DNA of 64,000 nt, from positions 1 through 64,000 of the forward strand of contig NZ_PDKT01000004.1 of NCBI RefSeq assembly GCF_002933315.1. The letters are read 5' to 3'. The stretch comes from Candidatus Pantoea edessiphila (lineage in GTDB: Bacteria; Pseudomonadota; Gammaproteobacteria; Enterobacterales; Enterobacteriaceae). The translations under genes were made by a program, and so were the position numbers. Position 1 is the first letter of the stretch; each line of letters opens with the position of its first letter. Below the pieces are notes generated by a model, which made no database searches, had not been told where the DNA came from, and worked only from the letters and a program-made list of their open reading frames with translations. Of this stretch, positions 204 through 57,972 are shown one piece after another.

Positions 204-2330
204 TTATTTAATTGATATCATGTTATTCTTAATATTGATTTCTATAGTGTTTTCAGGTGTTAATTCTCCAGAAAGTATTTTTTGTGCTAACAAATTTTCT
301 ATCTGTTGTTGAATAGCTCTTTTAAGTGGACGTGCACCATGTAGTGGATCGTAAGTATTTTTACTTAACAAATTAAATACTTCTTTGTGAATATATAACT
401 TATATCCCTGTTCTTCTAGACGATTACGTAAGTATTTTAGTTGAATTTGTGCAATAGAATGCATATGTTGTTCGTTAAGAGGGTGGAATACAACCACTTC
501 ATCGATACGATTAATAAATTCAGGTTTGAAATATCGATTAACTGTATTCATTATTAGATCTTTCATTTTGTTATAATTAAGGGTACTAAAATGTTTTTGA
601 ATTAAATCAGAACCTAAATTAGAAGTCATGATAATAACTGTATTACAAAAATTAATGGTTCTTCCTTTACTATCTGTTAAACGTCCTTCATCTAATACTT
701 GTAATAAAATATTAAAAATATCAGTATGCGCTTTTTCAATTTCATCTAATAAAATTACTGAATAGGGATGAATACGTATAGCTTCTGTTATATATCCTCC
801 TTGCTCATATCCTATATATCCTGGAGGTGCTCCTATTAATTTAGAAACTGAATGTTTTTCCATAAATTCAGACATATCAATTCTTATAATTGCATTATCA
901 CTATCAAATAAGAAATGTGCTAGTGATTTAGATAATTCTGTTTTACCTATTCCACTAGGTCCTAAAAATAAAAATGAACCTATTGGGCGATTTGCATCGG
1001 ATAAACCTGCTCGGTTACGACGAATAGCATTTGATATTATTTTAACTGCTTCATTTTGACCAATTACTTTTTTATGTAACTCTTGTTCTATACGAATAAG
1101 CTTTTCACGTTCATTTTCCATCATTTGAGCTACTGGGATACCAGTCCAACGAGAAACGATATTAGCAATCTCTATATCATTAACGCAATTACGCAATAAT
1201 GTCATATTATTTTCTTCAGAAGTAGTTGCTTTAACAAGTTTTTTTTCAAGATCTGGAATAATACCATATTGTAATTCAGACATTTTTGCTAAATCTACAG
1301 AACGACGCGCTTGTTCTAAAGATAAACGAGCTTTTTCAAGATTAGTTTTAATATTTTGTGTGTCTAAAAGAGATTTTTTTTCTGTTTTCCATTTTTTTAT
1401 AAAATTATTGTATTCAGTTTCTTTTTTATTAAGTTCTTTTTTTAATATTTCAAAACGCTTAATACTTGCTTGATCAGATTCTTTTTGTAATGTCTGTTGC
1501 TCTAATTTTAATTGTATAATACGTCTTTCAATTCTATCAAGTAATTCAGGTTTTGAGTCTATTTGTAAACGAATACTAGAAGCAGCTTCATCAATTAAGT
1601 CAATTGCTTTATCTGGTAATTGACGTTGAGAAATATATCTATTTGATAAACTTGCTGCAGCAACAATAGCCGGATCAGTAATTTGAACATGATGATGTAT
1701 TTCATAACGTTCTTTAAGTCCTCTAAGGATAGCTATGGTATCCTCAACGTTTGGTTCTGATATATAAATTTTTTGAAAACGACGTTCTAAAGCTCTATCT
1801 TTTTCAATATAATAACGATATTCATCTAAAGTTGTTGCCCCTACACAATGAAGTTCTCCTCGAGCTAACGCAGGCTTTAAAAGATTACTTGCGTTTATTG
1901 ATCCATCACCTTGTCCTGCTGCAACTATATTATGTAATTCATCAATAAATAATATGATATTACCTTCATGTTTAGCTAAATTTTTTAGTATTTCTTTTAA
2001 ACGTTCTTCAAATTCACCACGATATTTAGCACCTGCTATTAATGCACCTATATCAAGAGATAATATTTGACTTTTTTTTAATCCATCTGGTATTTCATCA
2101 TTAATAATACGTTGAGCAAGACCTTCAATGATTGCAGTTTTACCTACTCCAGGTTCACCAATTAATACTGGGTTATTTTTAGTTCTACGTTGTAAAACTT
2201 GTATTGTTCGACGAATTTCTTCATCACGTCCAATTACTGGGTCTAATTTATTATTTTCAGCAAGTTCTGTTATATTTACAGTAAATCTATGTAAAATTTG
2301 ATTTTTATCATTTAATTCTTTGTTATTCAC
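204..2330 (-). CDS. clpB: ClpB disaggregase, short form lacking the N-domain
   Basis: Hsp100 AAA+ disaggregase that works with DnaK to resolubilise aggregated proteins in the cytosol. The 708 residues hold NBD1 (Walker A GEPGVGKT at 58-65, Walker B LFIDELH), the coiled-coil M-domain (roughly 260-390) and NBD2 (GPSGIGKT near 457), ending with the small domain. E. coli ClpB has 857 residues plus an alternative product begun at an internal GTG (Val149). Here the first codon is also GTG, and the following residues ([18 protein letters not shown]) align with the E. coli VNDQGAEDQRQALKKYTI segment. An in-frame TAG at 2337-2339, three codons upstream, excludes a longer product. GAGGG upstream is a plausible ribosome binding site. 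The N-terminal substrate-binding domain has been lost, leaving only the ClpB-deltaN form. The gene precedes the rRNA operon, as in E. coli. Confidence 0.97.
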
Positions 2331-2670
2331 TTCATTCTACCCTCATGAATTATGCTAATAATCTTAATAATATATTTCTAATTAACAAGTAAAATAAAAA
2401 CTAAAAAAATTTTTATATCTTAATTTAAATTATTATGTATTCATCTAATATTCAATGAATAGATTATTTGTTTATATTATTTTTAAATAAATTCATAAAA
2501 TTTATAATAAAAATAATCATTAAACTTAAATTTTAATAAAATACAATTCAAATTATGTGTAATAATTCATAATATACAAATAAATTAAAGATTAAATGTA
2601 TTTAAAATATAATAATATATTTAATTGATATAATTAACAAAATTTATAGTTCTTATATTATTTATTGAAT
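2331..2670. other. Intergenic, eroded (yfiH/pgeF position)
   Basis: A very AT-rich spacer of 340 bases. In E. coli this place holds yfiH (pgeF) and the ClpB N-domain coding sequence. I see no recognisable remnant apart from a short stretch just before the clpB GTG (minus strand ATG AGG GTA GAA), which resembles the E. coli MRGGE codons in that place. Confidence 0.6.
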
Positions 2671-3633
2671 TTAAAATTTTATAATGCGATGATCTTTTTT
2701 AAGAGAATTAATAAGATTATTTATATCTACAGGAATTGGCGCATCAATTACCATTCTAGCATTAGTAATAGGATGGGTAAAAATTAACTTTATTGCATGT
2801 AATGCTTGACGATTAAAATGAAACATTTCATTCATTGTTATATGTTTGTTTTTTTGTACTACAGAAACATGTTTACCGTAAACTTGATCTCCTAATAATG
2901 GATGGTTAATATATGCCATGTGAACACGAATTTGATGAGTACGACCTGTTTCTAAACGTATGTTTATTCGAGAATGATTACGAAAATATTCTATTACATT
3001 ATAATGAGTTATAGCATTTTTTCCTTGTAAACTTACTGTCATTTGTGTTTTTTTAGTTGAATGACGACCAATAGGTGCATCAATTGTACCATTTGATGGT
3101 ACAATACCAACTACTATTGCTTCATATTCACGAATAATTTCATGTCTTTTTATCATATCAATTAATTTTAATTGTGCATTTATGGTTTTTGCTATAAGCA
3201 TAAGTCCAGTAGTATCCTTGTCTAATCTATGTACTATACCTGCACGTGGTATGCTAACTAAAATAGGATATTTATATAACAATGCATTTAGTAAAGTACC
3301 ATTTAAATTATTAGTTCCTGGATGTACTACTAAATTTTTTTGTTTATTTATGACTAAAATATATTGATCTTCATATAAAATATCTAATGGTAAATTTTGT
3401 GGTTCTGGATGTAATATATTTGGATTATTATCATGAATAATTATTAATTTACCACCTGATATTTTTTTCGGTTTCTTGATTATAATATCATCAAGTATAA
3501 CTAATTTATTTGAAATCCATTTTTTTATGCAAGAACGTGAATAATTAGGAAAATGCTGTTTTATAATTAGATCCAATCTCTTTTTAATATTAGTTTTAGG
3601 TAAAATTAAAGTATGTTGATTTTTTTTTATCAT
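2671..3633 (-). CDS. rluD: 23S rRNA pseudouridine synthase RluD
   Basis: Forms pseudouridines 1911, 1915 and 1917 in helix 69 of 23S rRNA. The 320 residues (E. coli 326) have an N-terminal S4-like RNA-binding domain (about 15-75) and the RluA-family catalytic motif HRLDKDTTG at 135-143, with catalytic Asp138. It diverges from bamD, as in E. coli. RluD is the RluA-family member with the strongest growth phenotype in E. coli, which may explain its survival here. RluC is the main alternative, but the position beside bamD and clpB favours RluD. Confidence 0.95.
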   Translation of the reverse strand: MIKKNQHTLILPKTNIKKRLDLIIKQHFPNYSRSCIKKWISNKLVILDDIIIKKPKKISGGKLIIIHDNNPNILHPEPQNLPLDILYEDQYILVINKQKNLVVHPGTNNLNGTLLNALLYKYPILVSIPRAGIVHRLDKDTTGLMLIAKTINAQLKLIDMIKRHEIIREYEAIVVGIVPSNGTIDAPIGRHSTKKTQMTVSLQGKNAITHYNVIEYFRNHSRINIRLETGRTHQIRVHMAYINHPLLGDQVYGKHVSVVQKNKHITMNEMFHFNRQALHAIKLIFTHPITNARMVIDAPIPVDINNLINSLKKDHRIIKF

Positions 3634-3742
3634 AATAGTAATTTCTTTATAAGAATTAATTTTTATAGCAATATTCTCTTTAGTAAAATATTATTATTTT
3701 TATTAAATTAATATAATTTTATAAAAGGATAGTAATTGTATC

Positions 3743-4471
3743 ATGAAAAAAATAAAATATTTATTAACTATTTTTTTAGTAATAATGATGATGAGTTGTT
3801 CTATATGTAACCAAACAGAACTATCATATGATTCACTATATAAAATATATAAAACTGCTCAAAAAAAAATGCAGGAAGGAAATTTTATATCAGCAATTAA
3901 ATACCTAGAAAGTATAAAAAATATAGATTTATTTAGACAACATACACAACAAATACAACTCGATTTAATATATGCTTATTACAAAAATATGGATCTAGAA
4001 TCTTCGGAAAATGCAATTAATCATTTTATGAATGTTTATCCAAATCATCCTAATGTAGATTATTTACTTTATATGAAAGGTTTAATAGGAATGTCAATGG
4101 ATAATCCAGCAACAATGAAGTTTTTTCATTTTGATAATTCTAGTCGTGATCCAGAATATGCTTATAATGCATTTAGTAATTTCGTACAATTAATAAAGTA
4201 TTATCCTAAGAGTATATATGTTAATGATGCTTATAATCGTTTAATTTTTTTAAAAAACAGGCTAGCTAAATATGAATTATCTGTGGCATTATTTTACCAT
4301 AAACATAGAGCTTACGTTTCAGTAATTAATCGTGTCAAAAAAATGATGATATACTATCCCGATACAAAAGCGACTCATAACGCATTACTTTTAATGGCAG
4401 AAGCTTATCGAAAATTAAATATTAATGATGAAGCAGATAAAATTTTTAAAATTATTGATTTAAACCATTAA
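3743..4471 (+). CDS. bamD: Outer membrane assembly lipoprotein BamD
   Basis: Essential lipoprotein of the Bam complex, which inserts beta-barrel proteins into the outer membrane. It has a lysine-starting hydrophobic signal peptide and a lipobox MMSC with the lipidated Cys19. About five TPR-like helical repeats follow, including QLDLIYAYYKN, closely matching E. coli BamD (242 versus 245 residues). A ribosome binding site AAAGGA lies about 13 bases before the ATG. Its presence implies that the cell still makes an outer membrane with beta-barrel proteins, and lipoprotein processing fits with lgt at 50050. Confidence 0.96.
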   Translation: MKKIKYLLTIFLVIMMMSCSICNQTELSYDSLYKIYKTAQKKMQEGNFISAIKYLESIKNIDLFRQHTQQIQLDLIYAYYKNMDLESSENAINHFMNVYPNHPNVDYLLYMKGLIGMSMDNPATMKFFHFDNSSRDPEYAYNAFSNFVQLIKYYPKSIYVNDAYNRLIFLKNRLAKYELSVALFYHKHRAYVSVINRVKKMMIYYPDTKATHNALLLMAEAYRKLNINDEADKIFKIIDLNH

Positions 4472-4983
4472 CATATCAAGAATATTTTTAATGGCTAGTT
4501 ATAAGATGACTTTACTACATACTTTTGCAATTAAATTAATATAATAAAATATTAATTTATAAAAATTAAATAATAAAACATATTATTAATATGTAGAACT
4601 TAGATGTTATTTTAATAATTAATAACTGATAATATTTTAGATTTAAAAAAAACAGATAATTGACTATTTATTAATAGTAAATTGATAAATTATGTACCAT
4701 TATAGTTAATGGTATATAATGTTATCATATTTGAAAATACTTAAAAAAAATGAATAACAATTTTAAATTGTATCAATGCCTATAAATATTAAAAATAATT
4801 AATTTTTTAATATCGATCAAATATAAATAATTTTAAAAATATTATTGTATTATTCTGTATGGTAATTTAAATTTAAAAAGAATTTTTTAATTTTATTTAA
4901 AATTTGTGAAAGTAATATAATTATATTTATTACATAATATCATCTACAAAAAGTTTTTTATTTTATTCCTGATAGGTACCTGT
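4472..4983. other. Intergenic, eroded (raiA and pheL position)
   Basis: An AT-rich spacer of 512 bases between bamD and pheA. E. coli has raiA and the pheA leader peptide gene here. I found no raiA remnant and no short phenylalanine-rich leader ORF. The only small ORF that I checked (ATG near 4750) encodes no Phe run. Confidence 0.6.
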
Positions 4984-6150
4984 ATGAATAATACCAAGTC
5001 ATCATTAACATTGTTACGTAATAGAATCAATGAAATTGATGAAAAAATTTTAATATTGTTATCTAAACGTCGATTGTTGTCCATTGAAATTGCTGAAACC
5101 AAATTAAAAAATAATATTCCAATTCGTGTTATAGAACGTGAAAATTTAATTATAAAACGCCTAATATCATTAGGAAATAAATACAAATTAAATTCGTATT
5201 TTATTACACAATTATTTCAATTGATAATTGAAGATTCTGTTTGCGTTCAACAATCTATTATACAAAAAAAATCTAACTATCTTTACCCAAGTTCAGTTAA
5301 AATTACTTTTCTTGGACCGAATGGTTCATATTCACATATAGCTGTTAAAACATATTCTTCAAGATACTTTGATAATGTAATCGAATGTAGCTGTTTAAAT
5401 TTTTATGACACTATTAAAAATGTTGAAAAAGGAATTGCAGATTATGCTGTATTGCCTATTGAAAATACTAACTCAGGATCTATTAATGAAGTATATGATT
5501 TACTTCAATACACAAATTTGTCAATTATTAATGAAATAATTATATGCATAGATCACTGTATATTATCTAAAAAAGGAAGTGATTTAACAAAAATTACTAC
5601 AATTTATAGTCATCCACAACCACTTCAACAATGTAGTAATTTTATTAGTCTATTTCCTAATTGGAATATTAAGTATACAGAAAGCACAGCAGTTGCAATG
5701 AAAAAAGTAGCATTATTAAATTCATCTAAAATAGCAGCATTAGGTAGTGAAGATGGGGGATTAATATATAATTTAGAAGTATTAAAATGCAATTTAGCAA
5801 ATCAACAGCATAACCAAACAAGATTTATTGTATTATCACGTAATCCTATTGACATTCTTGATTATATACCTGCCAAAACAACTCTGATTATTGCAACTGG
5901 TCAGCATGTAGGGTCTTTGGTTGATGTACTGTTAGTTTTTCGTAAATATAATTTAGTTATTAATAAACTTGAATCACGGCCTATTAATGGAAATCCATGG
6001 GAAGAAATATTTTATATAGATGTTAAAGGTAATGTAAAATCAGAAAACATGCAATATGTACTTAAAGATTTAAAGAATATTACATATTCTTTAAAAGTTT
6101 TAGGAAGTTATCCTAGTGAAAGTCATTTGTTAATGACAGGTATTAATTAA
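4984..6150 (+). CDS. pheA: Chorismate mutase / prephenate dehydratase
   Basis: Bifunctional cytosolic enzyme converting chorismate to prephenate and then phenylpyruvate, on the Phe branch. It has 388 residues (E. coli 386). Domains in order: AroQ chorismate mutase (about 1-95), prephenate dehydratase (about 105-285, with FLGPNGSYSH, LPIENTNSG and the catalytic TRF of QTRFIVL), and a C-terminal ACT regulatory domain. Of the two ACT motifs needed for Phe inhibition, ESRP is intact (330-333) while GALV reads GSLV (310-313). The mutase position equivalent to E. coli Asp48 is Val. AGG about 10 bases before the ATG serves as ribosome binding site. No attenuator leader is visible, so control may be only allosteric. 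It converges with tyrA. Confidence 0.97.
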   Translation: MNNTKSSLTLLRNRINEIDEKILILLSKRRLLSIEIAETKLKNNIPIRVIERENLIIKRLISLGNKYKLNSYFITQLFQLIIEDSVCVQQSIIQKKSNYLYPSSVKITFLGPNGSYSHIAVKTYSSRYFDNVIECSCLNFYDTIKNVEKGIADYAVLPIENTNSGSINEVYDLLQYTNLSIINEIIICIDHCILSKKGSDLTKITTIYSHPQPLQQCSNFISLFPNWNIKYTESTAVAMKKVALLNSSKIAALGSEDGGLIYNLEVLKCNLANQQHNQTRFIVLSRNPIDILDYIPAKTTLIIATGQHVGSLVDVLLVFRKYNLVINKLESRPINGNPWEEIFYIDVKGNVKSENMQYVLKDLKNITYSLKVLGSYPSESHLLMTGIN

Positions 6151-10845: not shown

Positions 10846-12207
10846 TTAATTTTTATAAAAATTTTGTGGAACCATATTTTTTATATATTTTGATATTTTA
10901 TGTATACTGCTTTTTTTCATTTTCTTTACTATATTTTGCATATCAGTAAATTGCTTCATGAGGCGATTAACATCTTGTACTTTCACTCCAGCACCATTAG
11001 CTATACGACGTTTACGTGAACCTTTAATAATTTCTGGATTTTCACGTTCTTTAATTGTCATAGAATTAATTATTGCTTCCATATTAATTAATATTTTATC
11101 ATTTATTTCTGGTTTAATATTATTTGATAATTTTCCTAAACCTGGTATTTTTTTTACTAAATCAGATATATTTCCTATTTTACGTATTTGTTTTAATTGT
11201 TGAAAAAAATCACTAAGATCAAATTTATCTCCTTTTTTCATTTTCTTAGTTAAATTTTCTACTTGTTCAACATCTAATTTATTTTCTATATCTTCTATTA
11301 ATGATAAAATATCTCCCATGCCAAGAATACGAGAAACTATGCGTTCTGGATAAAACTGCTCTAATGCTTCTATTTTTTCACCTACACCCATAAATTTAAT
11401 TGGTTTCCCAGTTATGTGACGAACTGATAATGCTGATCCTCCTCTTGCATCACTATCTGCTTTAGTCAAAATTATTCCAGTAAGAGATAACTTTTTATCA
11501 AAAATTTTTGCCGCATTAGCAATATCTTGACCCATCATAGCGTCAACTACAAATAAAGTTTCTATAGGATTAATTAATTTATGTATTTGTTGGATCTCAT
11601 CCATCATATAATCATTGATATGTAGACGACCAGCTGTATCTATCAACAAAACATCATAACACTTAATCTTTGCTTCTTTTAAAGCATTCTGCACAATATC
11701 AATTGGTTTTTGGTTAAAATTTGATGGATAAAAATCTACATTAATTTGACTTGATAATGTTTCTAGTTGTTTTATCGCTGCTGCACGATAAATATCAGTA
11801 GAAACTGTTAACACTTTTTTTTTAAATTTTTCATGCAAGAAATTAGCAATTTTAGCAACACTAGTAGTTTTGCCAGTACCTTGTAAACCAACTAATAATA
11901 TAATAGCTGGTGGTGCAACTGATAGATTAATATTGTTATTCTTTTCACCCATAGCTATAATTAGTTCATTCCTAACAATCTTAATAAATTCTTGTCCTGG
12001 CGTCATTCGTTTATTTACTTCTTGACCTATTGCTTTTTCTTCTACAGCTTTAGTAAAGCTGCGAACTACAGGTAAAGAAACATCAGCTTCTAATAATGCT
12101 ATGCGAACTTCATGAAGAGTTTGTCGTATATTTTCTTCTGTTAATCTACCTTTGCCACTGATATTCTTTAAAGTTTTTGATAAGCGATCAGTTAGATTGT
12201 CAAACAA
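10846..12207 (-). CDS. ffh: Signal recognition particle protein Ffh
   Basis: SRP54 GTPase that binds 4.5S RNA and signal anchors and targets inner membrane proteins through FtsY. It has 453 residues, equal to E. coli. The N domain is followed by the G domain (GLQGTGKTT near 106, DTAGR, TKAD) and the C-terminal M domain (from about 300). The RNA-binding helix-turn-helix retains SRKRRIANGAG. The M domain is unusually poor in methionine (about 6, compared with about 20 in E. coli), with Ile, Lys, Val or Leu in their place. It lies upstream of the rpsP operon, as in E. coli. Confidence 0.97.
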   Translation of the reverse strand: MFDNLTDRLSKTLKNISGKGRLTEENIRQTLHEVRIALLEADVSLPVVRSFTKAVEEKAIGQEVNKRMTPGQEFIKIVRNELIIAMGEKNNNINLSVAPPAIILLVGLQGTGKTTSVAKIANFLHEKFKKKVLTVSTDIYRAAAIKQLETLSSQINVDFYPSNFNQKPIDIVQNALKEAKIKCYDVLLIDTAGRLHINDYMMDEIQQIHKLINPIETLFVVDAMMGQDIANAAKIFDKKLSLTGIILTKADSDARGGSALSVRHITGKPIKFMGVGEKIEALEQFYPERIVSRILGMGDILSLIEDIENKLDVEQVENLTKKMKKGDKFDLSDFFQQLKQIRKIGNISDLVKKIPGLGKLSNNIKPEINDKILINMEAIINSMTIKERENPEIIKGSRKRRIANGAGVKVQDVNRLMKQFTDMQNIVKKMKKSSIHKISKYIKNMVPQNFYKN

Positions 12208-40823: not shown

Positions 40824-42155
40824 GTGAAGAAAAGCAGTAATGCATTGGTTCGTAGTTTTCGACATGCTGTACCATATATAAACACACATAGAGGCAAAAT
40901 ATTTATTATTATGCTGAGTGGCCAATCAATTGCTCATAATAATTTTTATAATATTATTAACGATATCGGTTTAATTCATAGCTTAGGAATTCGTTTAGTA
41001 TTAGTTTATGGCGCAAGTCCACAAATAGATAAATACTTATTAGAATACAATATTAAATCAATCTATCATAAATTTAATCGTATTACTGATAAAAAATCGC
41101 TTGAAATTATAAAACAAGTCGCCGGTCGTCTTCAATTGGATATTACCTCTTTATTATCTATGTCTCTAAATAATACACCTTTACAAGGAGCAAATATAAA
41201 TGTTGTCAGCGGCAACTTTATTACCGCTCAACCATTGGGTATAGATGATGGAGTTGATTATTGTCATGCTGGTAAAATTCGTCGTATTGACATAAAAGCA
41301 ATTCATTATCAACTAAATAATAATGCTATTGTTTTATTAGGACCTATAGGAGTTTCTGTAACTGGAGAAAGTTTTAATTTAAATTCAGAAGAAATAGCTA
41401 CACAATTAGCTATTAAACTTAAAGCAGAAAAAATAATAGGCTTTTGTTCTGGAAAAGGAGTTATTGATAATAAAGGTAATATTATTTCTGAATTATTTCC
41501 AAAAAATGCTCAATTATATATAGATAAGATAGAAAGTAAAAATAATTATTTATCAGAAATTACACTTTTTCTCCGAGCTGCAATTACAGCTTGCCGTAGT
41601 GGAGTATATCGATGTCATTTAATTAGTTATCAAGATGATGGTGCTTTATTACAAGAATTATTTTCACGTGATGGTGTTGGTACACAGATAGTTATGGAAT
41701 CAGCAGAACAGATAAGAAAAGCTAATATAAATGATATTGGTGGAATTCTAGATTTAATTCATCCTCTTGAACAACAAGGTATTTTAGTTAGGAGATCTCG
41801 GGAACAATTAGAAATAGAAGTTGATAAATTTACAATAATTAAAAGGGATAATTTAACTATTGCTTGTGTAGCGCTATATCCTTTTATAAATGAAAAAATA
41901 GGTGAAATGGCTTGTTTAGCAGTGCATCCTGATTATCGTAATTCATCGCGTGGTGATGTGTTATTACAAAATATATCAATTCAGGCTCGTAAAATAGGAT
42001 TAAAAAAAATATTTGTTCTAACCACTAGAAGTATTCATTGGTTTCAAGAACGTGGTTTTAAACCAGTAAGTATTGAATACTTACCAAAAATTAAGAAAGA
42101 AATGTATAATTATCAAAGAAAATCGAAAGTACTTATGATAGATTTAAATAATTGA
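40824..42155 (+). CDS. argA: N-acetylglutamate synthase
   Basis: Acetylates glutamate, the first step of arginine synthesis. It has 443 residues, equal to E. coli, from a GTG start with AAAAGG upstream. The N-terminal amino acid kinase-like domain carries the arginine-sensing segment FRHAVPYINTHRGK, conserved with E. coli. The C-terminal GNAT domain has MACLAVHPDYRNSSRGDVLL and RSIHWFQERGF. The usual LGGEAI motif reads LSGQSI. I see no ArgR box upstream. It converges with recB; recD, which lies between them in E. coli, is missing. Confidence 0.97.
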   Translation: MKKSSNALVRSFRHAVPYINTHRGKIFIIMLSGQSIAHNNFYNIINDIGLIHSLGIRLVLVYGASPQIDKYLLEYNIKSIYHKFNRITDKKSLEIIKQVAGRLQLDITSLLSMSLNNTPLQGANINVVSGNFITAQPLGIDDGVDYCHAGKIRRIDIKAIHYQLNNNAIVLLGPIGVSVTGESFNLNSEEIATQLAIKLKAEKIIGFCSGKGVIDNKGNIISELFPKNAQLYIDKIESKNNYLSEITLFLRAAITACRSGVYRCHLISYQDDGALLQELFSRDGVGTQIVMESAEQIRKANINDIGGILDLIHPLEQQGILVRRSREQLEIEVDKFTIIKRDNLTIACVALYPFINEKIGEMACLAVHPDYRNSSRGDVLLQNISIQARKIGLKKIFVLTTRSIHWFQERGFKPVSIEYLPKIKKEMYNYQRKSKVLMIDLNN

Positions 42156-42185: not shown

Positions 42186-45100
42186 TTATGGTTTTTTGCC
42201 AATAAACTGGTCTAATTTTTCAATTAAATGTCTATTAGGTAGTACATTCATGATACCATTATTGGAGTTTTCATTAATATTCCTTAAAAATAAATAAAAC
42301 ACACCTCCAAAATATCTTTCATAACTATAGTTTTTAACTCTTAATTTAAGATAACGATGAAATGCTAATGTACACAATTGATATTGTAAGTGAAAACTTT
42401 TATTTTTTAAAGAACATATATTACGACAATAATAATTTTTTAATCTATCTATTTTGTAATATAATAAATAATATTTATTTTTCCACATAAATACTAAATC
42501 TATATAACCTCGAATAATTCCTTTTACTTCATTACAACTAAATTGATTTTCTTGTATAAATAATATGTTTTTACTATCAAGGAGTACACTCAAATCTGAT
42601 ATTACTGAAGTATTTCTAATGGGAATAAAAAATTTCATATCTTCTACATAATTGATATTTTTAATAGCTATTAAATTAAGTCCTTTTGAATCCAATTTTT
42701 TATATAATATTATTTTCAGCCATTTATATATGGGTTTTAATAGATTTAAAGAATATCCATTTATATTTAATTGATATTTTAACCATTCTTTTTGGTTTAA
42801 CTTATTAAAATCTATTGATTTAAGTAAGTCAATTATAAATTTATTAAATTTTAAGGTATATGGAAACTCATTATTTGTTAATGACAAATCTTTTTTAGAT
42901 GATATATCAAAAATATTCATATCATTTTTATTTTCAATATTCAAATAATTTGTAATCAACCAACTATCATATAAAATACGATTAATTTTAAGAATATTTA
43001 ATGCAGTATTAATTTTTACTTGTTTTTGTGATTTATTATTTTTATTTTGTTTTTCATTAATATCTATATAATTTATATCTATGCCATTTAGTTTGTTAAT
43101 GCAATTTTTTAATGTTTGTAAGTTAATATTTTTATTACATTGCAATAAGTAACCAAGTACGCTTTTATATAAATTATTGGAGTTTTCTTTTTTATTTGAA
43201 TTTTTTATAAAAGTTGCAATACCAATACTACAGTGATAAACAGCTCTAGTAACTGCTACATAAAAAAGACGTAATTCTTCACTAAATCTTTCTTTATTTA
43301 TTTTTATTAAATTGTTAACATTTGAATTACACGATAAAATATTGTCCTTATAATAAGGCATATTACTATATTCACCAAAACCTGTAGCAAAAGGTATCCA
43401 TACTAATGGATACTCTAAACCTTTTGATTTATGTATGGTGATAATACGTATAACATTTAGATCCTCTAAACGTATTTGTTGATCAATAATTTGATTATCT
43501 TGTTTAAGAATTTGTTTTGAAAAAAAATTTAAAAGATCATTGGGACCAATTAATGATGTGTATTCTACTTGTAGTAGTTCCCCAATGTGCATCAAATTTG
43601 TCAATCTACGCTTACCATTTTTTGAAGCTAAAATATTTACTGCTATACTATCTTTTGATAGGATAGTACGTAACATAGTTAATATGCCATATTTTTGCCA
43701 TATTTCTTTCCATTTTGAAAACTTATCTATTAAATTTATTTTCTTACTGTTATCACTTGTTATTGTATCAATATCTTTTGAATTAATTGAAAAAATAGAA
43801 GTTGCTAGTGCAGTACGTAATAATTTTAGTTTTGTTGGATAGTGTATTGCTTTTAGCAAATATAATAATTCACGTGCTTCAACAGTATTATAAACACTAT
43901 CAGTATCAGATAAATAAACTGATGAAATATAAAATGCATTAAGTGCATTACGTATTAAATTTGCCTCACTACGATTACGAACTAGTATAGTTATATCAGA
44001 AGCTTGTAGTATGTGAAATTCATCATATCTTCTTAAAAAAGCTTGTTGTTGTTTGCTAGCTATCAACCAATTATTTATTTCAATAGCACATTGCTTTGCC
44101 ATATCGTATTTGTAATCAATTAGACTAATTCTATCTCTAGGATGTACCCAAAAACGTAAAGAAGGATAATTTTTTTTATTAAAAATAAATTTTAATTGTT
44201 TGTTGTTAATGGCCGATTTAATCGGTATAAAGGGAATTTCTGGATATATAAAAGGTAAATTTGTTTGCGAAAAGAGACAATTTACGCTTTCAATCATTTC
44301 CGATGATGAACGCCAATTTGTTTGTAAAGTATAGATATCATTAATTTCATAACGCATATTAAGATAAGTGGATATATCTGCACCACGAAATGAATAAATA
44401 GCTTGCTTAGGATCACCAATAATTATTATTGCTTGATTAGGTTGATTTATATATATTTTATGAAAAATGCGATATTGTTGTGGATCTATATCTTGAAATT
44501 CGTCAATTAATAACACTGGAAAATTATTTCTAATATTCTCAGCTAAATAATCACCATTCGGCTGTTTTAAAGCCTTATCCAAATAATATAATAAATCATC
44601 AAAACTTAGTAATCCTTGTAGATATTTTTCTTTATTTATAGAATCAGTAATTTCAATTATTGCTTGTTTGATGAAAGTATCTCTTAAAGACAAATGTTTA
44701 ACTAAAAATTTTTCTATTTCCTCAAATAATTTAAATGTATTAATTACACCTGTTTGATGTATCTCAATTACAGAATATCTGAATCTGGTAAGTTCTTTTG
44801 GTATTTGATAATCTAAAGTTTCACTTTTAGACCATGTTGTTATTTTATTAATCCAATTTGTTAAGTTTTTATTACTATAAATACGTTTATTAATTTTCAT
44901 AGAATTAATAATTTGAAATATATCTTTATGAAACATTATCCACATATTTTTTATTGAAATAATATCAGATATATTTTTAACATGTTTTAGTTCTAAATTT
45001 TCGTTAAAACAAGATGAAAAATCAATAAATTGCATTTTTTTTTGAAATAAAGGATATAAAGTGGATATGAAATCCTCGGCACTATTCCATTCATTTGAAA

Positions 45101-45650
45101 TGATACGCGCTACATCTAATGACATTAAAAAACAACGACGATGCCAAAAATCCAATGTAATTTTTTTAAATAAAGTATATTCATCAGATAATATTTTGTT
45201 TTGAAATAATATATTTAATTCATAATTAAAAAACTTTAGTACCTTTCTACAAAAACCGTGTATTGTATATATAGCCGCATTGCATATATTATTTTCTGCA
45301 AATAATAATATTTCAATAGCTTGATTAATGTCATCAATTTGTTCAATTAATAATTGATGCATAGGATTATCGCTTCTTCCTCGTATACAACTTAAACGTA
45401 ACTGACGTATATCATTAAGTATACGATTGCGTAGCTCAATTGTAGCAATTTCAGTAAAAGTTACTACTAAAATTTCTTCAATAGATAAAATTTTGTAATA
45501 TGCATTTTCATTTTTTAATCCTAATATTAATCTTAAATATAATAAACTAATTGTAAAAGTTTTACCTGTACCTGCTGAAGCTTCAATTAATTTGCTACCT
45601 TGAAGTGGAATTGTTATAGGATTCAATGGATTGATATTTATTTTATTCAT
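42186..45650 (-). CDS. recB: RecB, helicase conserved but nuclease site degraded
   Basis: 3'-5' helicase and nuclease subunit of RecBCD. It has 1154 residues (E. coli 1180). Superfamily 1 helicase motifs are intact: ASAGTGKT (24-31), LLIDEFQDIDPQQY, GDPKQAIYSFRGAD, QTNWRSS, IHKSKGLEYPLVW and RLFYVAVTRA. The C-terminal nuclease domain is still full length. By alignment with E. coli as I recall it, His956 is Ile940, Glu1020 is Asp1004, Asp1080 is Tyr1064 (codon 42459-42461) and Tyr1114 is Cys1093. Asp1067 (Asp1051) and Lys1082 (Lys1066) remain. The protein should unwind DNA but probably cannot cut it. It pairs with recC upstream; ptrA, between them in E. coli, is gone. Confidence 0.95.
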   Translation of the reverse strand: MNKININPLNPITIPLQGSKLIEASAGTGKTFTISLLYLRLILGLKNENAYYKILSIEEILVVTFTEIATIELRNRILNDIRQLRLSCIRGRSDNPMHQLLIEQIDDINQAIEILLFAENNICNAAIYTIHGFCRKVLKFFNYELNILFQNKILSDEYTLFKKITLDFWHRRCFLMSLDVARIISNEWNSAEDFISTLYPLFQKKMQFIDFSSCFNENLELKHVKNISDIISIKNMWIMFHKDIFQIINSMKINKRIYSNKNLTNWINKITTWSKSETLDYQIPKELTRFRYSVIEIHQTGVINTFKLFEEIEKFLVKHLSLRDTFIKQAIIEITDSINKEKYLQGLLSFDDLLYYLDKALKQPNGDYLAENIRNNFPVLLIDEFQDIDPQQYRIFHKIYINQPNQAIIIIGDPKQAIYSFRGADISTYLNMRYEINDIYTLQTNWRSSSEMIESVNCLFSQTNLPFIYPEIPFIPIKSAINNKQLKFIFNKKNYPSLRFWVHPRDRISLIDYKYDMAKQCAIEINNWLIASKQQQAFLRRYDEFHILQASDITILVRNRSEANLIRNALNAFYISSVYLSDTDSVYNTVEARELLYLLKAIHYPTKLKLLRTALATSIFSINSKDIDTITSDNSKKINLIDKFSKWKEIWQKYGILTMLRTILSKDSIAVNILASKNGKRRLTNLMHIGELLQVEYTSLIGPNDLLNFFSKQILKQDNQIIDQQIRLEDLNVIRIITIHKSKGLEYPLVWIPFATGFGEYSNMPYYKDNILSCNSNVNNLIKINKERFSEELRLFYVAVTRAVYHCSIGIATFIKNSNKKENSNNLYKSVLGYLLQCNKNINLQTLKNCINKLNGIDINYIDINEKQNKNNKSQKQVKINTALNILKINRILYDSWLITNYLNIENKNDMNIFDISSKKDLSLTNNEFPYTLKFNKFIIDLLKSIDFNKLNQKEWLKYQLNINGYSLNLLKPIYKWLKIILYKKLDSKGLNLIAIKNINYVEDMKFFIPIRNTSVISDLSVLLDSKNILFIQENQFSCNEVKGIIRGYIDLVFMWKNKYYLLYYKIDRLKNYYCRNICSLKNKSFHLQYQLCTLAFHRYLKLRVKNYSYERYFGGVFYLFLRNINENSNNGIMNVLPNRHLIEKLDQFIGKKP

Positions 45651-56226: not shown

Positions 56227-57972
56227 TCAATTTATAGGCCATAAACATTCAATTAATAATTGAACAAAATGTTTATTACTATATTTATTGATATCTAATC
56301 TGTATACTAATTCAACTTTATTGATATTTTTGTTTGGCCAACTTTTTGTATCTACATTAAATAATATCCCATTAATTAATGGACCGTTATTAACAATCCT
56401 TAATAAAACATGTAGATGTTTTTTATTTATTAAACGTTGTTGAATTAATTCAAATTTACCATCAAAAGTAGGTTCAGGAAAAGATGACCCCCATGGTCCT
56501 GCTTCACGTAATAAATTTACTGTTTTAACAGAAAAATCAGAAGGTTCCAGAGATCCATCTGACCAGACAATATCTGAAATTATATTATCTTTAAATGATT
56601 TTTGTACTATATTTGAAAAATGCTGACTAAATTCTTCATAATGTGATTCTTTAATAGATAAACCAGCAGCCATAGCGTGACCACCGAATTTTATAATTAA
56701 CTGTGGTTGCAGCAAGTTTAGATGTGCAAGTATATTTCTTAAATGAAAATTTTCAATAGAGCGACCAGAACCTTTTAAAATACCATCTCCTATACCAGTA
56801 GGTGCAAATGCAATTACTGGACGATGAAAACGTTCTTTTAAACGTGATGCTACAATACCAACTATTCCTTGATGCCATTTGGGATGATATACAGTAAGAC
56901 CTAAAGGTAAGTTATTATCTTTTTGTTGTAGTGTATTACATAATTTTAATGCATCATTTTGCATAACTTTTTCAATTTTTTTACGATTTTGATTTAATTT
57001 GTCTAATTCATTAGCTAAAATACGTGCTTGCATTAAATTATCAGTTAATAATAATGCAACTCCAATTGACATGTCATTTAATCTTCCTGCTGCATTAAGA
57101 CGAGGTCCTAATACATAACTAATATCATCTGTAGAAAGATCTTTTCTATTACATTTAGATTTTTCTAAAAGAGCTGTAATACCTGGACGACACATCCCAG
57201 AACGAATACGTTTTAATCCTTGCCATACTAAAATTCTATTATTTATATCAAGAGGAACTACATCAACAATAGTGCCAATAGCAACTAGATCTAATAAAAT
57301 AGCTAAATTTGGTTCAACAATGTTTTGTTGCTTAAACCATTTTTTATCCCGCAAATAAGTTCTTAAAGCGATCATTAAATAAAAAGCAACACCTACCCCT
57401 GCTAATGAACATAATTGAGAAGAACAATTTGAAATATTAGGGTTAATAATCACTGAAGCATCAGGAAGGTTTTCAGGAGGCAGGTGATGATCAGTAATTA
57501 TTACAGGTATACCATAGTTTCTTGCACATTTTATCCCTTCATGAGATGAAATACCATTATCTACAGTAAGTATCATTTCAGCACCTATCATATATAAATG
57601 TTTTACCATTTTTTCACTTAAACCATATCCATCTTCAAACCGATTTGGTATTAGATATTGTATATTTTTACTACCCATACTTTTTAGAGCTAATACTGTT
57701 AATGCAGTACTGGTTGCACCATCGGCATCAAAATCTCCTACTACTATGATTTTGCGATCTTTTGTTAACATGTTATATAATATCAAAACTGCTTTATCAA
57801 TTCCAGATAATGATCTAAATGAAGATAAATATTTTGTACTACGTTCCAAGTGTTCTGGATAACATAATCCACGATTTAAATAAAGACGTTTTATTAATGG
57901 TGCTAAATCTGTTGGTAAACTATCTTTAACGGTGATTTTACGCCTACGTAATTCAATTTTATAATTTAACAC
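56227..57972 (-). CDS. recJ: Single-strand DNA 5'-3' exonuclease RecJ
   Basis: DHH-family exonuclease used in mismatch repair and RecFOR recombination. It has 581 residues (E. coli 577). Metal motifs are VVGDFDADGATSTAL (near 78), TVDNGISSHEG, ITDHHLPPENLP and GPRLNAAGRL, with KFGGHAMAAGLS in the DHHA1 domain. dsbC and xerD, next to it in E. coli, are missing. If RecB cannot cut DNA, RecJ may provide 5' resection (inference). Confidence 0.97.
   Translation of the reverse strand: MLNYKIELRRRKITVKDSLPTDLAPLIKRLYLNRGLCYPEHLERSTKYLSSFRSLSGIDKAVLILYNMLTKDRKIIVVGDFDADGATSTALTVLALKSMGSKNIQYLIPNRFEDGYGLSEKMVKHLYMIGAEMILTVDNGISSHEGIKCARNYGIPVIITDHHLPPENLPDASVIINPNISNCSSQLCSLAGVGVAFYLMIALRTYLRDKKWFKQQNIVEPNLAILLDLVAIGTIVDVVPLDINNRILVWQGLKRIRSGMCRPGITALLEKSKCNRKDLSTDDISYVLGPRLNAAGRLNDMSIGVALLLTDNLMQARILANELDKLNQNRKKIEKVMQNDALKLCNTLQQKDNNLPLGLTVYHPKWHQGIVGIVASRLKERFHRPVIAFAPTGIGDGILKGSGRSIENFHLRNILAHLNLLQPQLIIKFGGHAMAAGLSIKESHYEEFSQHFSNIVQKSFKDNIISDIVWSDGSLEPSDFSVKTVNLLREAGPWGSSFPEPTFDGKFELIQQRLINKKHLHVLLRIVNNGPLINGILFNVDTKSWPNKNINKVELVYRLDINKYSNKHFVQLLIECLWPIN

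Follow-up and report, generated by a model that had tools for sequence, protein, structure and literature searches.

A RecB with lost nuclease residues and intact helicase motifs in a genus without detectable RecD

What becomes of a RecB whose nuclease residues have been replaced while its helicase stays intact, and what removed those residues? The question is raised by the recB gene of a 64,000-nucleotide stretch of DNA (the window, G+C about 26%) from an 850-kb draft genome in 12 contigs, 99.95% complete. A first-pass annotation of the sequence had described an apparently dead nuclease beside an intact helicase, and had suggested selection for unwinding without degradation. We compared this gene within its genus (g1), whose six genomes, 99–100% complete, are reduced and A+T-rich and probably belong to insect gut symbionts, and across a wider set of bacteria.

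Catalytic site and helicase of the window RecB

The window protein scored 911.7 bits against the NCBIfam model TIGR00609 (cut-off 696), which identifies it as a RecB equivalog, and 1215.9 against PRK10876, below the stricter cut-off of that model (1697). Its residues 8–1150 matched the E. coli RecB chains in the PDB (phmmer, 1.5e-272). The gene order, argA-[recD lost]-recB-[ptrA lost]-recC-thyA-lgt, is that of E. coli minus two genes: recD, which in E. coli separates argA from recB, and ptrA, which separates recB from recC. RecC, as a partner in the RecBCD holoenzyme, is present in the window (Table 1); across the genus, five genomes encode it at full length, and in the remaining one the contig ends within the gene. 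The window RecJ has 63% identity over the query segment; overall it is 57% identical to its E. coli counterpart, and its DHH-family motifs are intact.

When the window protein was aligned with more than 35 RecBs, E. coli residues H956/E1020/D1067/D1080/K1082/Y1114 corresponded to I/D/D/Y/K/C at window residues 940/1004/1051/1064/1066/1093. Hence the PD-(D/E)XK site (H956, D1067, D1080, K1082) is broken in the window by H956I and D1080Y, with D1067 and K1082 still present. The spacings of 111 residues (956–1067) and 13 residues (1067–1080) are preserved, the flanking motif aligns gap-free, and the frame is anchored by GIIRGYIDLVFMWKNKYYLLYYK aligned with GMLKGFIDLVFRHEGRYYLLDYK; no shift of the alignment places an acidic residue opposite D1080. 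The substitutions, the spacing and the two surviving residues reported in the first-pass annotation were all recovered in this way, and the catalytic residues did not move onto intact neighbours when related symbionts and other bacteria were aligned. The SF1A helicase motifs I–VI are intact, as had also been claimed.

Outside the genus, the six catalytic positions were invariant in the first alignment (more than 35 RecBs). A further symbiont set added conservative D/E exchanges only, namely D1080E in G112 and G139 and E1020D in G081, and in 66 of 66 RecBs from RecD-bearing genomes the six positions were identical or D/E-exchanged only. Among 29 columns conserved elsewhere at ≥95%, 14 are changed in the genus, including all six catalytic ones, a coincidence that chance does not explain (P = 0.006); the remaining 15, none of them catalytic, show no change in any of the four sequences with the domain. 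Judged from the alignment, structural columns have been kept and catalytic ones lost, as expected of an enzyme domain that has been inactivated and is putatively kept for another role. A single-sequence AlphaFold2 model of the nuclease domain was set aside (pLDDT 33).

Table 1 Features of the window and RecB proteins of the genus (catalytic positions in the order 956/1020/1067/1080/1082/1114 of E. coli RecB).
Feature	Position	Strand	Evidence
recA, 356 aa	18031..19101	-	PF00154, 461.6 bits; Walker motif present
argA, synteny anchor beyond lost recD	40824..42155	+	profile match, synteny
ancestral recD slot, 30 bp between argA stop and recB stop	42156..42185		gene order; RecD family absent from genome
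recB, whole gene, 1154 aa	42186..45650	-	TIGR00609, PRK10876, PDB RecB chains, synteny
RecB nuclease domain (E. coli 930-1174), predicted catalytically dead, frame open	42195..42911	-	alignment; omega ~0.25
Tyr1114 position = Cys	42372..42374	-	alignment with >35 RecBs
Asp1080 position = Tyr	42459..42461	-	alignment with >35 RecBs
Glu1020 position = Asp	42639..42641	-	alignment with >35 RecBs
His956 position = Ile	42831..42833	-	alignment with >35 RecBs
RecB helicase part (E. coli residues 1-870), motifs I-VI intact	43059..45650	-	motif check; omega ~0.2
recC, full length, 1101 aa	45749..49054	-	TIGR01450, 801.8 bits; Exonuc_V_gamma and RecC_C domains
recJ, 581 aa, proposed 5'-3' exonuclease partner	56227..57972	-	identity to E. 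coli RecJ; DHH-family motifs
G000 (window genome), catalytic positions I/D/D/Y/K/C			alignment
G003, catalytic positions N/N/D/Y/K/C			alignment
G004, catalytic positions I/D/D/Y/R/C			alignment
G002, catalytic positions Y/D/H/D/K/Y			alignment
G001, RecB 854 aa, without nuclease domain			
G005, RecB 860 aa, without nuclease domain			

Congeners and residual constraint

The defect extends beyond what the first-pass annotation had described: RecD is missing, and the five congeners share or exceed the damage to the nuclease site. The site is non-working in all six genomes of the genus, through catalytic substitutions in four and absence of the domain in two, and the helicase motifs are intact in all six species at 47–67% identity. 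G002, the deepest of the four domain-holding sequences, has lost a different pair of metal ligands (H956Y, D1067H). In G001 and G005 the gap between recB and argA measures 232 bp and 660 bp, respectively; read by eye, the G005 gap contains short stretches that resemble the nuclease, interrupted by stops and frameshifts. A tblastn search with the E. coli domain gave no match to a nuclease remnant in either genome, and a whole-genome RecB profile search gave no detached nuclease domain among the matches listed. A RecB of 837 aa without the nuclease domain was also observed in G058 (L046:6510-9023), a 349-kb genome of another family, with RecC and RecA present (recA about 1.8 kb downstream) and RecD absent. 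This loss is apparently independent.

Selection on the two parts of RecB was estimated separately, as had been advised in the first-pass annotation. Pairwise NG86 dN/dS was set aside, with synonymous sites near saturation in this A+T-rich genome, in favor of codon maximum likelihood. For G000, G003 and G004, which share D1080Y, the likelihood profiles put omega at about 0.25 in the nuclease domain and about 0.2 in the helicase, values that are rough because dS is near saturation; omega = 1 was rejected by about 30 and about 150 lnL units, respectively. Two control genera with intact nucleases had omega values of about 0.1–0.2 for both domains. Both parts are constrained, so relaxed selection over the whole gene was not seen. 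In a neutral domain several stops would be expected even at 0.1 substitutions per site, and none was observed. On these codon comparisons, purifying selection evidently still acts on the dead domain in the lineage of the window. With the tree fixed, amino-acid branch lengths gave nuclease/helicase rate ratios of 1.71 for the stem of the genus, 2.12 for the next one, 1.6–2.1 for the three tips and 0.78 for G002; the ratio over all other lineages was 0.88.

RecD and the rest of the repair pathway

Whole-genome family searches returned no RecD above cut-off in the six genus genomes, and the recD slot is closed in synteny. The genus therefore lacks the RecD partner of the RecBCD holoenzyme and has the gene set of a RecD-less RecBC type (RecB, RecC, RecA and RecJ without RecD). 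RecA, RecJ, ExoI (SbcB), RecG, RuvA, RuvB, RuvC and PriA are retained in all six genomes. No orthologue-grade match was obtained in these genomes for RecF, RecO, RecR, XseA, LexA, RecQ, RecN or SbcD, all eight of which were scored in the control genome G028. RecR was absent from the genus genomes by family search as well, and the RecQ segment gave weak helicase-like matches only, in G002 and G112. The sister lineage of the genus in the RecB helicase tree, G087, has RecD and an intact RecB nuclease site; the same eight proteins were undetected there too, so RecFOR was probably lost before the genus arose.

The survey covered 392 genomes of the family; RecB and RecA were then searched for in 50 genomes, most of them small. 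Loss of the nuclease site was found in none of the 63 RecD-bearing genera whose RecB was read, compared with two of four RecD-less lineages (Fisher P = 0.003, a value that ignores phylogeny). From these gene comparisons, RecD loss looks necessary for loss of the nuclease site but not sufficient, because G112 and g141 are RecD-less and keep a motif-compatible site. A rule by which RecA-minus symbionts keep the nuclease and RecA-plus ones drop it fitted the first 18 genomes but did not hold once more were added, because RecD and an intact nuclease are both present in several small genomes with RecA.

The survey also yielded some observations on individual symbionts. RecD is strongly diverged in g126 (L071, L072, L073; E 1e-37 to 4e-12), possibly a decay in progress, and the RecB nuclease site there is intact. 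In the RecA-minus symbiont G035, which has RecD and an intact RecB nuclease, recC is split into ORFs of 589 and 493 aa (L045:3270-6541); in G159, RecA-minus with RecD present, recB is split into ORFs of 352 and 843 aa (L078, recB approximately 1905-5461). RecB of G145, a 756-kb relative, is open except for two in-frame TGAs (L074:2395-5937), the first of them where Trp is conserved (W901 in E. coli), which suggests that TGA is read as Trp in its genus. Read so, the protein is full length, and G145 was rejected as a third truncation; its relative G248 has no in-frame TGA in RecB. The same reading is suggested for G131, a genome of about 300 kb whose RecB (L077:1702-5136) has seven in-frame TGAs, several at likely Trp positions, and no other stops.

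The RecC residues that we take to contact Chi are T40, Q44, D133, Q137, R186, W70, R142 and D705; on this list the first five are changed in the genus and W70, R142 and D705 are kept. Exact Chi octamers (GCTGGTGG) occur at window positions 11906, 17636 and 55307, that is, three in 64 kb compared with 0.26 expected, a number reached in 0 of 100 shuffles. They occur although a Chi response is expected to be lost, and may reflect conserved coding.

Probable release of an idle nuclease, its alternatives and known systems

The explanation we favor, and consider probable, is that RecD was lost first and that the catalytic site, then idle, was released, with RecBC left to unwind DNA and load RecA while RecJ trims the 5' strand. 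In E. coli, RecBC that lacks RecD shows no nuclease activity (PMC5592934, PMC2586629); it unwinds DNA, is Chi-unresponsive and loads RecA constitutively, while RecJ and ExoVII trim the 5' strand (PMC5592934). With RecD absent genus-wide, the catalytic residues were thus probably released, not selected against, since the decay of a site that is idle without RecD needs no positive selection. From what the sequences show (which genes are present, how RecB is substituted or truncated, synteny and the constraint that remains), we infer an order of events in which RecD was lost on the genus stem, RecFOR having gone earlier or being lost as well, and the idle site then decayed, at H956 and E1020 throughout, at D1080 and Y1114 on one branch and at D1067 on another. 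The fold would have been kept in four species, probably for RecA docking or DNA-end melting, and the domain would since have been deleted in the two sister species G001 and G005. By analogy with E. coli, the RecBC of the genus would have nuclease-free helicase activity and load RecA constitutively and, with RecFOR gone, would probably be the only known RecA loader left; RecJ would trim the 5' strand, and RuvABC, RecG and PriA would finish repair. RecBC of P. syringae is inactive without RecD (PMC2828478), so the E. coli behavior may not transfer.

RecA has been proposed to dock on the RecB nuclease domain, which also influences the melting of DNA ends (PMC13101046); either role would explain why a dead domain is kept. 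Docking by the domain cannot be essential genus-wide, because G001 and G005 keep RecA without it. In these two species, and independently in G058, RecA might be loaded by an undescribed mediator or by another surface of RecBC, without RecFOR, RecD or the RecB nuclease domain, a possibility that we regard as rather doubtful.

Selection against the nuclease itself, for example because degradation is costly with no Chi sites or with many chromosome copies, and with RecD loss and substitutions as two routes away from it, would fit the constrained helicase, the joint absence of RecD and nuclease, the faster nuclease domain on most branches of the genus (1.6–2.1 times the helicase rate), and the arrival of two independent lineages, the genus and G058, at a nuclease-free RecBC with RecA kept. 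RecBCD subunit genes are also listed among the positively selected genes of Benitsuchiphilus, a relative of Ishikawaella capsulata, which lives in the gut of plataspid stinkbugs (PMC7218078); the listing possibly reflects similar decay. However, RecD loss alone removes the nuclease, so that later catalytic substitutions would confer no additional advantage; both domains have an omega below 1, and many RecA-plus reduced genomes keep RecD with an intact nuclease. Substitutions that differ between lineages, together with two domain deletions, fit released constraint better than one adaptive change, and we consider such selection unlikely. Of the first-pass interpretation, the dead nuclease beside an intact, constrained helicase stands; selection for unwinding without degradation is neither shown nor needed.

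The reduced, A+T-rich genomes, the faster evolution of the nuclease domain relative to the helicase and its deletion in two species would also be consistent with a recB on its way to becoming a pseudogene, the helicase lagging behind. Helicase motifs that survive in six species at 47–67% identity, an omega of about 0.2 rather than 1, RecC that is full length wherever the contig does not end, and the retention of RecA, RecJ and RuvABC make whole-gene decay improbable. An altered nuclease that stays active through D1067, K1082 and replacement residues could draw on the presence of both in the window and on the conservative nature of E1020D, but the loss of D1080 alone is enough to abolish activity in E. 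coli (D1080A; PMC12135197), and here D1080Y is joined by H956I and Y1114C. With another pair lost in G002, the domain missing in two congeners and RecD absent, we hold residual activity to be very improbable. A sequencing or assembly artefact, conceivable for a draft in 12 contigs, is negligible given six genomes with open frames and with both shared and lineage-specific changes.

A RecBC without RecD has already been proposed, with RecJ, for Moranella endobia PCIT, which keeps recABCGJ, ruvABC and priAB and has lost recD (PMC3620526); with D1080E as the sole change, the nuclease motif of its RecB would still allow activity, and no dead domain was noted there. In the open-licence literature we found no natural RecBC described as having a dead or deleted RecB nuclease domain, and such a domain without RecFOR appears to be unreported. 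The RecB-delta-nuc constructs of E. coli and P. syringae resemble G001, G005 and G058 in lacking the domain, but were studied with RecD in RecFOR-proficient cells, and the E. coli version does not restore recombination (PMC2828478). The E. coli recB1080 mutant (D1080A), cited as the analogue in the first-pass annotation, shares the lost Asp1080 metal ligand and the intact helicase, and the change does abolish the nuclease by itself. It differs in that RecB1080CD contains RecD, cannot load RecA and leaves cells dependent on RecFOR (PMC5592934, PMC12135197), whereas the genus has neither RecD nor RecFOR. The E. coli recD mutant is the closer analogue, because RecBC loads RecA constitutively. Like the genus, that mutant combines the RecB helicase with RecC in the absence of RecD, which in the mutant gives nuclease-free unwinding and constitutive RecA loading (PMC5592934) and would be predicted to do so in the genus. 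In the genus a RecBC without RecD is a fixed natural state, the RecB catalytic residues are gone as well, and ExoVII (XseA), RecFOR, RecQ and LexA were undetected.

The species of the genus are natural counterparts of laboratory RecBC mutants and pose the question of how repair works without standard parts. The RecD-plus sister, the RecD-minus species with a dead domain and those with no domain form a natural series that separates three roles of RecB (unwinding, cutting and RecA loading), until now told apart mainly with mutants made in the laboratory. Should RecA docking be the reason why the dead domain is kept, the conserved residues of the domain would map that surface, and the species without domain or RecFOR bear on the old question of recombination in bacteria without presynaptic proteins (PMC1193525).
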